In this document: positions 1,099-37,217 of the stretch, in pieces
Position numbering within the stretch: the stretch's first letter is position 1
Layout of the letters: the number at the start of each line of letters is the position of its first letter
DNA from: an uncultured Bacteroidales bacterium
Lineage (GTDB): Bacteria; Bacteroidota; Bacteroidia; Bacteroidales; ML635J-15
Direction: 5' to 3'
DNA length: 37,217 bases
Assembly: GCA_937982115.1 (NCBI GenBank)
Contig: CALJNE010000015.1
Span: 1-37,217 of the forward strand
The notes under the pieces: model-generated
Seen by the model: only the letters and a program-made list of their open reading frames with translations
What the model was told of the DNA's origin: nothing
Database searches by the model: none
Program-made: the position numbers and the translations under genes

Positions 1099-1470
1099 TT
1101 ATTTTACATCCTTTGTTTTTAATACTTTTATGACCTCTGCTTCCTCAAAGTATCCTTCGTGTCTATAAAATTCTTTCCCCTGGCTGTCTAAAAATACTTG
1201 TGTAGGAATAAGATTGACGTTGTACTTTTCGGCATATGGTTTACCTTCAGGTGTCCAAACATCGTAAAACTCAATTTTCACCTGATCGCCATACTTTTCT
1301 TCAATGGATTTCATTACGGTCTGCATCTTCTGGCAAGGAATACATTTTACCGAACCCAATTCAACAAAAGTAACTTTATATTTTTTTGGTGTTGAGTTAA
1401 CTTTATCTTGAGCATAGGTAGCAGAAATTGATGTACCCATAAAAATTAAAATAATCATTATTGATTTCAT
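1099..1470 (-). CDS. Secreted thioredoxin-fold protein (CIPC active site)
   Basis: 123 residues. An N-terminal signal peptide of about 20 residues, ending near ATYAQ, sends the protein to the periplasm. The thioredoxin fold follows, with the redox motif KCIPC (Cys43, Cys46) after a 'VTFVELGS' strand, a central 'VKIEFYDVW' strand and the cis-proline segment NLIPTQVF. The CIPC dipeptide differs from thioredoxin CGPC and resembles thioredoxins of anaerobe gene clusters that include permeases and DGC proteins; that comparison is from general knowledge. The gap is 33 nt to the upstream DGC gene and 50 nt to the rhodanese gene, consistent with one transcript. Its partner oxidoreductase is not in the window. 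Confidence 0.87.
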   Translation of the reverse strand: MKSIMIILIFMGTSISATYAQDKVNSTPKKYKVTFVELGSVKCIPCQKMQTVMKSIEEKYGDQVKIEFYDVWTPEGKPYAEKYNVNLIPTQVFLDSQGKEFYRHEGYFEEAEVIKVLKTKDVK

Positions 1471-34273: not shown

Positions 34274-36763
34274 CTACCAAACTCCTGAAATTTTCTCTCC
34301 ACATTTCGGACATTTTCCTTTAAAATCCTTGCTGCTTTGAGTATTATATCCAATCCTGCGAATTATTCTTTCTCCACACTTAGGACAATATGTATTTATT
34401 TCAGAATTTCTAACATTGCCTAAATAAACATATTTAATTCCTTTAGATTTAGCAATTTCAGCAGCCTTTTCAACTGTCTCAACCGGAGTGGGAGGTACAT
34501 CCGACATTTTGTATGCCGGAAAAAAACGACTGAAATGTAAGGGAACATCCTGCAAGTTGTTTTCTACCATCCAATCACACATTTTAGAAATCATTTCCAT
34601 ATCATCTGTATATCCCGGTATAATGAGATTTGTAATTTCAACCCAAACATTATGCTTTTTTAACAGTAAAATTGTTTCTAGAACCGGTTGAAGACTTCCT
34701 CCCGTTATTTGCCGGTATAATCTGTTGTCAAAGCATTTTAAATCTATATTGGCAGCATCCAAGTAGGGGATAAGTTCAAGTAATGGTTCTTTATTTATGT
34801 ATCCGTTAGAAACCATAATATTTTTTAATCCTGCCTCGTGAGCAAGTTTTGCCGTTTCGAGCATAAATTCATAAAAAACCGTTGGCTCAGTATATGTGTA
34901 AGAGATTGATTTGCTGTTGTATTTTAATGCTAATTCAACAATTTGTTGCGGACTTGCTGATGTATATTCAATTTCTAACGGAGAAGCTTGTGATATTTGA
35001 TAGTTCTGGCAGTTCTTACAGCTGAAATTGCATCCTGCAGTACCTAATGACATAGTGTTGGAGCCCGGCATAAAATGATACAAAGGTTTTTTTTCTACCG
35101 GGTCGTTATGAAGAGCTACAATTTTACCGTAACTTATAGATTCAAGTTCTCCATTTATATTTTTTCTTGCATTGCAAATTCCTACTTCATCTTTTTCCAA
35201 TGTGCACTTGTGAGGACACAATTCACACCTTACTTTCTTTTCTTCTAGTTTGGTGTAGTATTTAGTTTTTTTTTTCGGAAATAAACCAAAGTCTTTTTCT
35301 GAAAAAACTATGGCTTCATAGGTGTAAATATCTGCATCTTTCCAACCTGTCCAACCTATTCCTGCTTTATCGCGAGCACAATGTCCCAGAAATTCTTCAA
35401 GCGACCAACCTGTTTCTGTTGCAACTTGAGGTAAAAATGTTCCGCCTCTGCCGTTTTTGATAATGTAAATTCCGTGTTTTCCCAGTACAATTTCGTCTAT
35501 TGAACTGATTTTTTTCATTGGCGTGAGAACAGAAATCTCAATATCAATTTCATCTAATTCATTTTTAGTAACTGGGCTAAAACGGGGGTCGCGAGTAGCT
35601 GCAGAAATAGCCATATCTATAACTACTTCATAAAGAGGAACTTTGGGCTCGAATTGACCGATACATCCTCTTAAAGCTCCGTTTTTATGGAGGGTAACAA
35701 AGGCTCCACACTGATTTTTCAGATTATCTGTAATGTTTATAGAGCTTATATTGGGTCTTTTATTATTATTAATTTTTTCTTCAACCGTTAGACGAGCTAA
35801 TTTTAATAATTCAATTTTCTCTTCATCAGATAAACTGAAATCGTTGTTTTGATTTTTTATAACAGAAATAGCCCAATAACCAACAACTTTGTCCTTGCTG
35901 CCATAAGGAGAATCTCCGGAATTTTTGTAATCAATAGGAAGATATGTATAATTGTTGTCGGTTAGATACATTAAAGTTAAAACAGCCGACCATCCGCAAC
36001 AAGTAGTAGCTAAATTATTAACCTTATTTTTCTCATACTTTGAAATCAGATTAATTAAACTGTCGGGTTTTCCGCTTAATATTGCTTCTGCAGTTTCGTT
36101 GTCAATCCTTAAAGCATCTTCATAAGACGGGTAATGAGAAAAATCGCTGGAGATTACAAAAATGTTATTTTTATTGAAATAAGGTTTTAATGCTTTAGCA
36201 ATTTTTTTTGCTGTATTTATAGCATCCTGTCCTATAACTATTGGAATTATCTGGAAATCATTTTTTAAATGTACCTGTAAAAATGGCAGTTGTACTTCGA
36301 TACTATGTTCTGTTTTGTGTGCTTCGGGTAGAAACTTAAAAAAGTCGTTTTCGTTTATCAATTTATTTGCTAAATCAATATTTACTTTCACTTCGCCTAA
36401 TGGAGTTAAGTAACTTCCTGCACTGTATATTGAAGCTCCGTCAAAGTAAGTGGTATGACTAGCAGCAATTATGAAAACATTTTCATATTTTTTATCCGGA
36501 TTTATCTGATTAATTGCCGAAGCAGCAATTTGTCCACTGAAAACATAGCCGGCATGAGGAGAAATTACTGCAATAGCATCAGACTTTCGACTTTTAGCAC
36601 TCGAAAAATAGTATTTTACATCATTTAGTAAATCATTTTTATTAGCAGGATAAAATCTGCCGGCAACAGCTGCATCGCGATTCATAAGCTCTTGTTTTTT
36701 AGATTGTTGTGCACATCCGTTATAAAATAAAAATAATAATATTGGAATAAGGATTATCCTCAT
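34274..36763 (-). CDS. MEMO-AMMECR1-radical SAM three-domain fusion (AmmeMemoRadiSam system) with lipoprotein-like signal
   Basis: 829 residues from ATG 36763 (an in-frame TTG lies at 36769). Residues 1-20 are a hydrophobic signal with a Cys at 17 (LLFLFYNGCAQQSKK), lipobox-like. MEMO domain about 28-300: RDAAVAGRFYP, HAGY (His70), ASHT (His103), SSDFSHYPSYEDALRID and TTCCGW (Cys255/256); His, His and Cys match the metal ligands of human MEMO1. AMMECR1 domain about 310-490: LRGCIGQFEP and ATRDPRFSPV. Radical SAM domain about 500-829: a preceding CELCPHKC motif, SAM cluster CNFSCKNC (C578, C582, C585) and a C-terminal zinc ribbon (CPKC twice). These three families form the AmmeMemoRadiSam system, usually as separate genes. 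All motifs look intact. The substrate is unknown. Confidence 0.93.
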   Translation of the reverse strand: MRIILIPILLFLFYNGCAQQSKKQELMNRDAAVAGRFYPANKNDLLNDVKYYFSSAKSRKSDAIAVISPHAGYVFSGQIAASAINQINPDKKYENVFIIAASHTTYFDGASIYSAGSYLTPLGEVKVNIDLANKLINENDFFKFLPEAHKTEHSIEVQLPFLQVHLKNDFQIIPIVIGQDAINTAKKIAKALKPYFNKNNIFVISSDFSHYPSYEDALRIDNETAEAILSGKPDSLINLISKYEKNKVNNLATTCCGWSAVLTLMYLTDNNYTYLPIDYKNSGDSPYGSKDKVVGYWAISVIKNQNNDFSLSDEEKIELLKLARLTVEEKINNNKRPNISSINITDNLKNQCGAFVTLHKNGALRGCIGQFEPKVPLYEVVIDMAISAATRDPRFSPVTKNELDEIDIEISVLTPMKKISSIDEIVLGKHGIYIIKNGRGGTFLPQVATETGWSLEEFLGHCARDKAGIGWTGWKDADIYTYEAIVFSEKDFGLFPKKKTKYYTKLEEKKVRCELCPHKCTLEKDEVGICNARKNINGELESISYGKIVALHNDPVEKKPLYHFMPGSNTMSLGTAGCNFSCKNCQNYQISQASPLEIEYTSASPQQIVELALKYNSKSISYTYTEPTVFYEFMLETAKLAHEAGLKNIMVSNGYINKEPLLELIPYLDAANIDLKCFDNRLYRQITGGSLQPVLETILLLKKHNVWVEITNLIIPGYTDDMEMISKMCDWMVENNLQDVPLHFSRFFPAYKMSDVPPTPVETVEKAAEIAKSKGIKYVYLGNVRNSEINTYCPKCGERIIRRIGYNTQSSKDFKGKCPKCGEKISGVW

Positions 36764-36789
36764 AATCAACCGAAATGTAATTTGCTTTA

Positions 36790-36820
36790 CAAATATAATA
36801 AAATTTTTCTTGAAATCAAA
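36790..36820 (-). promoter_or_regulatory. Bacteroidota-type promoter of the MEMO-AMMECR1-radical SAM gene
   Basis: Minus strand: TTTG at 36820-36817, exactly 19 nt, then TATATTTG at 36797-36790. Both boxes are perfect. The predicted start near 36783 lies about 20 nt ahead of the ATG at 36763, favouring the start that includes the signal sequence. Confidence 0.75.
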
Positions 36821-36831
36821 TTAACATTTAG

Positions 36832-37217
36832 TTAAATTGTATTGCGAGGTTTTACGAGATTGTAAATTTTATTTAATAAAATCTCTTCTTTTATGGGTTT
36901 TGTTATATAATCGTTACATCCTGCATTTAATGCTCTAGAAATATCCTCGTGAAGAGCATAAGCTGTTTGAGCGATTATTGGAATTTTAGTGTCAATTTTT
37001 CTGATTTGTTTCACAGTTGCAAAACCATCAAGTTCCGGCATTTTCATATCCATTAAAATACAATCTATATCTCCGGAATATTTATTAAATTTTTCGAAAG
37101 CTTCTACTCCTGATTCAGCAACAATTATCTCGAATTTGTCTTCAGGCAAAATCTCACGATAAAACAAATGATTTATTTCTTCATCGTCTGCAATAAGTAT
37201 TTTTATTCTATCATTCA
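36832..37217 (-). CDS. Response-regulator receiver (REC) domain protein, 5' end at window edge
   Basis: About 128 codons are visible and the frame stays open to the right edge. The REC fold is complete: acidic pair in KILIADDEE, phospho-acceptor Asp in CILMDMKMPELDG, the conserved Thr in AQTAYA and Lys in YITKPI. The bases at 37217-37216 are TG in frame, so one more base (A) just outside would make an ATG giving a stand-alone CheY-like regulator starting M-N-D-R-I-K-I-L; otherwise it is the C-terminal receiver of a hybrid histidine kinase. A shorter start at TTG 37167 would delete the acidic pocket and is rejected. There is no output domain after it. Confidence 0.88.
   Translation of the reverse strand, partial: NDRIKILIADDEEINHLFYREILPEDKFEIIVAESGVEAFEKFNKYSGDIDCILMDMKMPELDGFATVKQIRKIDTKIPIIAQTAYALHEDISRALNAGCNDYITKPIKEEILLNKIYNLVKPRNTI

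Follow-up and report, generated by a model that had tools for sequence, protein, structure and literature searches.

A Bacteroidales Memo-AMMECR1-radical SAM fusion with a predicted Sec signal peptide points to an extracytoplasmic form of the AmmeMemoRadiSam system

INTRODUCTION

The components of the AmmeMemoRadiSam system (Memo, AMMECR1, and a radical SAM protein) are usually assumed to be cytoplasmic, and radical SAM enzymes in general are taken to be cytosolic because SAM, the reductant, and Fe-S cluster assembly are located there. Human MEMO1 is reported to bind metal. To our knowledge, no Sec-exported radical SAM protein has been described.

An excerpt of PMC10924467 presents Fe-S proteins as normally Tat dependent because the cofactor is inserted in the cytoplasm, and an excerpt of PMC5837995 states that most signal peptidase I substrates in Bacteroidota have Gln at the new N terminus. 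A search of open-access full text returned, among the matches listed, no title or abstract opening that dealt with an exported radical SAM enzyme or with the function of AmmeMemoRadiSam; the word AmmeMemoRadiSam occurred in five papers, a single time in each. A portion of PMC7159879 cites "recently-described Memo-Ammecr1 systems" from Burroughs and colleagues (2019); since that work may mention exported forms, the novelty of those described here is provisional.

Here, we analyze a stretch of Bacteroidales DNA of 37,217 nucleotides (the window), in which a radical SAM fusion had been predicted to start with a lipoprotein-like signal. We consider it likely that the Memo-AMMECR1-radical SAM fusion encoded there is exported through Sec and represents an AmmeMemoRadiSam system of extracytoplasmic type.

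RESULTS

Domains, distribution, and neighborhood of the fusion

An hmmscan search found Memo, then AMMECR1, then radical SAM in one chain of the window protein (Table 1). The NCBIfam AmmeMemoRadiSam cut-offs, those for protein B, protein A, and the radical SAM enzyme in this order, were passed for all three (236.9 versus 26, 173.2 versus 99, and 382.8 versus 220 bits), the Pfam matches (PF01875 and PF01871) agreed with this assignment, and the next radical SAM profiles after TIGR04337 were TIGR04041 at 68.1 bits and TIGR02493 at 58.7 bits. When all 31 genomes sampled from the family were searched, the triple fusion was found in 13, spread over three genera, and the other twelve proteins were 56 to 93% identical to that of the window. 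There were no further triple fusions among the matches listed from 396 genomes of the class or among the frames listed for loci L076 to L167, and in the relatives examined outside the family, Memo-AMMECR1 and radical SAM were separate proteins. One family genome with TatC (G010) matched the fusion in two short fragments (residues 762 to 831 and 20 to 80, at G010:C2:115146-115352 and G010:C33:28-219), possibly a lost or split copy; these were left out of the fusion count.

Comparison of the window with five larger loci (L066 to L070) revealed no conserved operon around the fusion. A response regulator gene similar to that of the window adjoins the fusion in L066 and not in L067 to L070, and a PfkB-like kinase near the fusion recurs in L066 and L067 only. 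The window also holds two tandem radical SAM ORFs (PF04055; 15408 to 18312, plus strand), which are unrelated to the fusion finding, and, far from the fusion, a thioredoxin-like protein (1099 to 1470, minus strand) with an N terminus that looks signal-like by eye.

Table 1. Features of the fusion gene and its surroundings, in window positions
Feature	Position	Strand	Details
Response regulator receiver gene upstream of the fusion	36832..37215	minus	runs off the window
Predicted Bacteroidota-type promoter, TTTG-N19-TATATTTG	36790..36820	minus	
Memo-AMMECR1-radical SAM triple fusion gene	34274..36763	minus	829 aa from the outer ATG
Predicted Sec signal peptide, residues 1-18	36710..36763	minus	signal peptidase I predicted to cut at NGCA|QQ
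Cys17, in the YNGC put forward as a lipobox	36713..36715	minus	sequence deviates from the lipobox pattern
Internal ATG (Met27)	36683..36685	minus	candidate second start, directly ahead of the Memo domain
Memo domain	35870..36673	minus	PF01875, also TIGR04336
AMMECR1 domain	35303..35806	minus	PF01871, also TIGR04335
Radical SAM enzyme domain	34277..35266	minus	TIGR04337, 382.8 bits versus cut-off 220
N-terminal Cys cluster of the radical SAM part, C513/C516/C520/C530	35174..35227	minus	invariant in 13 fusions
Radical SAM cluster motif CxxxCxxC, C578/C582/C585	35009..35032	minus	invariant in 13 fusions
C-terminal two-CxxC ribbon, C793/C796/C818/C821	34301..34387	minus	

The signal and promoter at the outer start

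From the ATG at 36763, the N terminus of the window fusion reads MRIILIPILLFLFYNGCAQQSKKQELMNRD; the hydrophobic stretch and the Y-N-G-C behind it are both there as originally described, and there is no twin-arginine motif. By our own hydrophobicity and motif rules, which define all signal classes used here, an N-terminal signal is present in 13/13 triple fusions, and the best 12-residue hydrophobicity of the window signal is 2.99. Base-shuffled stretches between the outer and internal ATGs of the 13 fusions stayed open in 6 to 15% of draws; they were both open and equally hydrophobic in 0.0008 of 4,000 draws for the window and in at most 0.0063 of draws for each of the 13 fusions, the window included. 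The natural stretch is open and hydrophobic in 13/13 fusions, which, being related, are not independent trials.

Of the lipoprotein-like signal put forward in the original prediction, the hydrophobic signal held up and the lipoprotein character did not. The YNGC of the window fails the PROSITE-style lipobox, which one fusion of the 13 satisfies (L012, with FASC). A strict rule for signal peptidase I sites that asks for Gln at +1 fits 11/13 fusions, with NGCA|QQ in that of the window, and misses L004 and L007. Export through Sec with cleavage by signal peptidase I is thus the better reading of these N termini, and lipidation of the window fusion appears the weaker one.

The -33/-7 promoter with 19-nt spacing that had been predicted before the outer ATG was confirmed in the sequence. 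Its TAnnTTTG box ends 17 to 28 nt before the outer ATG in 11/13 fusions (it is missing in L012 and L013), compared with 37 of the 2,374 ATGs counted over the two strands of these loci, a number that may include the 11, and the 75 nt ahead of the internal ATG hold no such box in any of the 13. Over the whole window, the promoter motif alone occurs 2 times versus 3.0 expected, no excess over chance, and we therefore used only the ortholog footprint as evidence for the promoter. In 13/13 fusions, the 20 codons that precede the outer ATG include an in-frame stop. Orthologs do not all begin at the Memo domain: the fusions carry signals, and it is three unfused family members, with no signal on either Memo-AMMECR1 or radical SAM, that start there.

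The internal start

A Met lies within 5 residues before the Memo domain in 13/13 fusions (2, 3, or 4 residues before a conserved Arg) versus 3/35 unfused signal-bearing Memo proteins, although the 13 are not independent cases because the fusions form one clade. A makes up 0.48 of the 18 nt upstream of this Met, compared with 0.32 at 137 other Met codons, and folding around it is weak (-2.7 kcal/mol, against -6.4 kcal/mol at those codons). AAAA precedes it in 12/13 distinct fusions versus 3/24 unfused proteins tested, a comparison that covers 24 of the 35, counts five fusions twice (18 rows for 13), and is registered on the conserved Arg, with an offset of one or two codons in four fusions. A counterpart of the ATG at 36685 that had been offered as an alternative start recurs throughout the fusions, and the conservation of signal and promoter argues against its being the only start used.

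Export signals in relatives and the presence of Tat

Across all loci, we sorted 123 distinct radical SAM domains into 13 fused, 36 Tat-type, 8 anchored (with an N-terminal anchor or Sec-like stretch), and 66 signal-less; because the best 80 of 591 matching stretches from one scan of genome contigs were kept, these counts describe the set gathered and not natural frequencies. Four labels were reassigned by eye: L125 and L152 became Tat, L127 became anchor, and L098 became signal-less. Some Tat-type loci come from records that bear the names Altiarchaeota and Aenigmatarchaeota; as these records are metagenome bins, the archaeal origin of the loci is only apparent. The motif CxxxCxxC is retained in 13/13 fused, 35/36 Tat-type, 8/8 anchored, and 65/66 signal-less radical SAM proteins, and a T[YF]xEP stretch is retained in 13/13 fusions and 33/36 Tat-type proteins; together, the conserved cysteines and this stretch favor a putatively active radical SAM site.

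Where it was readable, Memo carried a signal in 21/21 cases with Tat-type radical SAM, 3/3 with anchored, 13/13 with fused, and 10/28 with signal-less radical SAM; pairing with Memo was possible for 21/36 Tat-type and 3/8 anchored rows. Elsewhere in the set, then, a Sec signal stands on Memo-AMMECR1 and a Tat signal or anchor on a separate radical SAM protein. The ten loci with a signal on Memo and none on radical SAM are exceptions to this pattern. In L088, L089, L100, and L105 (Prevotella/Prevotellaceae), Memo-AMMECR1 has a signal, the adjacent radical SAM protein has none, and TatC is present, a combination for which the export model offers no explanation. In L055 (318-2489), two radical SAM genes, of which the one encodes a Tat signal and the other does not, stand in tandem next to the genes for Memo-AMMECR1 and the membrane protein considered below. 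The family member at L168 (G030:C194:2111-5232) has signal-less Memo-AMMECR1 and radical SAM genes plus a second radical SAM gene, which encodes an N-terminal anchor and adjoins a relative of that membrane protein.

A TatC match was found in 34/36 genomes with Tat-type radical SAM, 2/8 with anchored, and 0/13 with fused radical SAM (2/21 for the last two combined). The exceptions are two Tat-type genomes without TatC, for which gaps in draft genomes may account, and two anchored genomes with it. The association between radical SAM type and TatC is strong in counts. Among the 31 family genomes, TatC was matched in two, G025 (no fusion match) and G010 (the two fragment matches), and searches of the window genome for TatC and TatA/B/E gave no match. 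The predicted export routes (Tat, anchor, and Sec fusion) appear largely to follow the presence of Tat in the genome. The suggestion that the enzyme is exported thus gains support from the signal in all 13 fusions, from the -7 box in 11, and from the Tat signals and anchors of related proteins.

A candidate membrane partner

A gene-by-gene reading of five Tat-type loci showed the genes for Memo-AMMECR1, a membrane protein of 793 to 831 residues, and the Tat radical SAM protein side by side on one strand. A spermine synthase domain lies between long hydrophobic stretches in 5/5 of these membrane proteins, and one of the two tested passed the NCBIfam cut-off for "fused MFS/spermidine synthase." In an alignment to a solved spermidine synthase, DLTDP corresponds to NLPEP in the profile consensus of the membrane protein, so that the usual catalytic aspartate seems to be lost. 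Sub-threshold matches of the N terminus to DUF4405 in 4/5 are no more than a hint of a haem-b part.

The gene is present in the locus for 26/36 Tat-type, 3/8 anchored, 2/66 signal-less, and 0/13 fused radical SAM proteins, counts in which some loci are cut by contig ends. It was absent from all 13 fusion genomes searched, and the family genomes gave one clear match (G030) and one weak match (G025). Tree-aware pairing yielded few independent contrasts, 2 to 4 for TatC and 3 to 6 for the membrane protein, and neither pattern reached significance.

Phylogeny of the radical SAM domains

The large tree held 113 of the 123 radical SAM rows, with ten short or odd ones left out (L030, L049, L050, L079, L080, L124, L142, L150, L155, and L162). 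On it, 9 changes account for the four N-terminal types, compared with 48.7 in shuffles, and the fusions fall in a single clade (support 84). In a more careful tree of 46 rows, with 8 of the 13 fusions, the fusions join the three family members that are unfused and signal-less (99/95) and next, weakly, with other signal-less Bacteroidales radical SAM proteins (89/47; 80/52). This weak grouping suggests that the direct ancestor of the fusions may have been cytosolic, and a cytosolic ancestor that gained a signal on fusion is as possible as a Tat-exported ancestor that changed route. We had considered a history in which Tat was lost and fusion then rescued export, and we make no claim for it, since the 46-row tree weakly places the fusions with signal-less proteins.

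DISCUSSION

From the comparisons of signals, promoter position, conserved cysteines, and the pattern of Tat signals and fusion, we infer that the window fusion is exported, is cut at the predicted site, and is active in the periplasm. Transcription would begin some 20 nt ahead of the outer ATG, the chain would pass through Sec by means of its signal peptide, and signal peptidase I would cut after Ala18, probably leaving a pyroglutamate, after which the three domains may act together outside the membrane. In lineages with Tat, a Tat-signal radical SAM protein would be exported folded beside a Sec-exported Memo-AMMECR1; in the window genome, which gave no Tat match, the radical SAM part would travel fused, behind a Sec signal. 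The most speculative steps come after export, when the [4Fe-4S] cluster would have to be built, perhaps from iron and sulfide in an anoxic habitat, and SAM and electrons would have to be delivered to it. The Tat dependence of Fe-S proteins (as excerpted from PMC10924467) counts against Sec export of such an enzyme; assembly of the cluster after export, a cytosolic isoform, and a metal-handling domain without SAM chemistry are the options that would reconcile the two.

Several other explanations for the N terminus of the window fusion deserve weight. An outer ATG called in error, with an ordinary cytosolic AmmeMemoRadiSam fusion starting at Met27, would fit the unfused family members, which begin at that place, and the cytosolic setting of known radical SAM chemistry. 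We rejected it and regard it as very improbable, given that the open frame with its hydrophobic signal and the upstream in-frame stop are kept in 13/13 fusions and that the -7 box is set for the outer ATG in 11/13. A lipoprotein anchored at Cys17 is improbable to a lesser degree: the cysteine is suitably placed behind the hydrophobic stretch, the lipobox of L012 is a good one, a Cys sits near the end of the signal in several unfused Memo proteins, and the lipobox of Bacteroidota can be looser than the PROSITE-style rule, but 12/13 fusions, including that of the window, fail the pattern, and a Gln+1 signal peptidase I site is found in 11/13. Better placed than either, if still somewhat unlikely, is the production of two proteins from one gene, an exported form from the outer ATG and a cytosolic form from the internal one. 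The near absence of the internal Met from unfused signal-bearing Memo proteins, its place at the start of cytosolic relatives, and its A-rich, weakly folded context with AAAA speak for this, and a cytosolic form could receive its Fe-S cluster normally, which would solve the cluster problem. The context is, however, confounded by the linker codons (Lys, Asn, and Gln) and by higher A content of the gene (0.35 against 0.29), the internal ATG lacks a promoter box in all 13 fusions, and the Met may be left over from an ancestral start or serve in packing. An exported form and a second cytosolic product can both be true.

It is also conceivable, though in our judgment unlikely, that the domain is exported and serves beside Memo in handling metal or electrons, with no SAM chemistry. 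No obvious source of SAM or reductant is expected outside the cytoplasm, and the metal binding reported for human MEMO1 would suit such a role; the retention of CxxxCxxC and T[YF]xEP in 13/13 fusions and in 35 and 33, respectively, of the 36 Tat-type proteins argues against it, as does the radical SAM score of 382.8 bits versus a cut-off of 220. Export signals on the window fusion and on many relatives suggest that radical SAM chemistry can occur outside the cytoplasm, and the predicted signals of the fusions argue against the usual placement of AmmeMemoRadiSam components. A wider reading, which we offer tentatively and would not favor as a whole, joins radical SAM chemistry outside the cytoplasm in bacteria, and possibly in some archaea, with a role for the membrane protein, whose aminopropyltransferase-like domain appears to lack the usual catalytic aspartate: in Tat lineages, it might pass SAM or its products across the membrane, and in Bacteroidales it may also pass electrons through a haem-b-like part at its N terminus. 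For the family of the window, as one without Tat, this reading would have the radical SAM part leave through Sec and its cluster assembled after export.

AmmeMemoRadiSam is a widespread uncharacterized system related to human MEMO1 and AMMECR1, and one branch of it apparently works outside the cytoplasm, a site reached by three routes (Tat, anchor, and Sec fusion). The system thereby gains a likely location and a candidate membrane partner, both useful toward its function, and periplasmic SAM chemistry, the supplier of SAM, and the maturation of an Fe-S enzyme after Sec export become testable.

Among described systems, hydrogenase small subunits, HybA, and other Fe-S proteins that leave through Tat (in the excerpt of PMC10924467) resemble the window protein in having cluster cysteines and being bound for the periplasm; they use Tat, whereas the window protein has a predicted Sec signal and is a putative radical SAM enzyme. 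Bacteroidota substrates of signal peptidase I that follow the Q rule (in the excerpt of PMC5837995) share with it a signal that is followed by a small residue and Gln at +1, and it differs from them in its cargo, a multidomain putative Fe-S enzyme. The nearest other radical SAM profiles are those of pyruvate formate-lyase activating enzyme and YjjW-type activases, and the window protein scores far below their cut-offs. The Tat-exported AmmeMemoRadiSam set, which comprises Memo-AMMECR1, the fused MFS/spermidine synthase-like protein, and the Tat radical SAM protein, has the same domains as the window fusion and signals that likewise point out of the cytoplasm; the window genome differs from it in having no Tat match, no membrane partner, and a fused radical SAM part. 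Lastly, the window fusion has all three parts of AmmeMemoRadiSam as defined by TIGR04335, TIGR04336, and TIGR04337, together with the radical SAM cysteines, and is set apart by joining them in a single polypeptide behind a predicted Sec signal, in a genome that gave no match to TatC or TatA/B/E.
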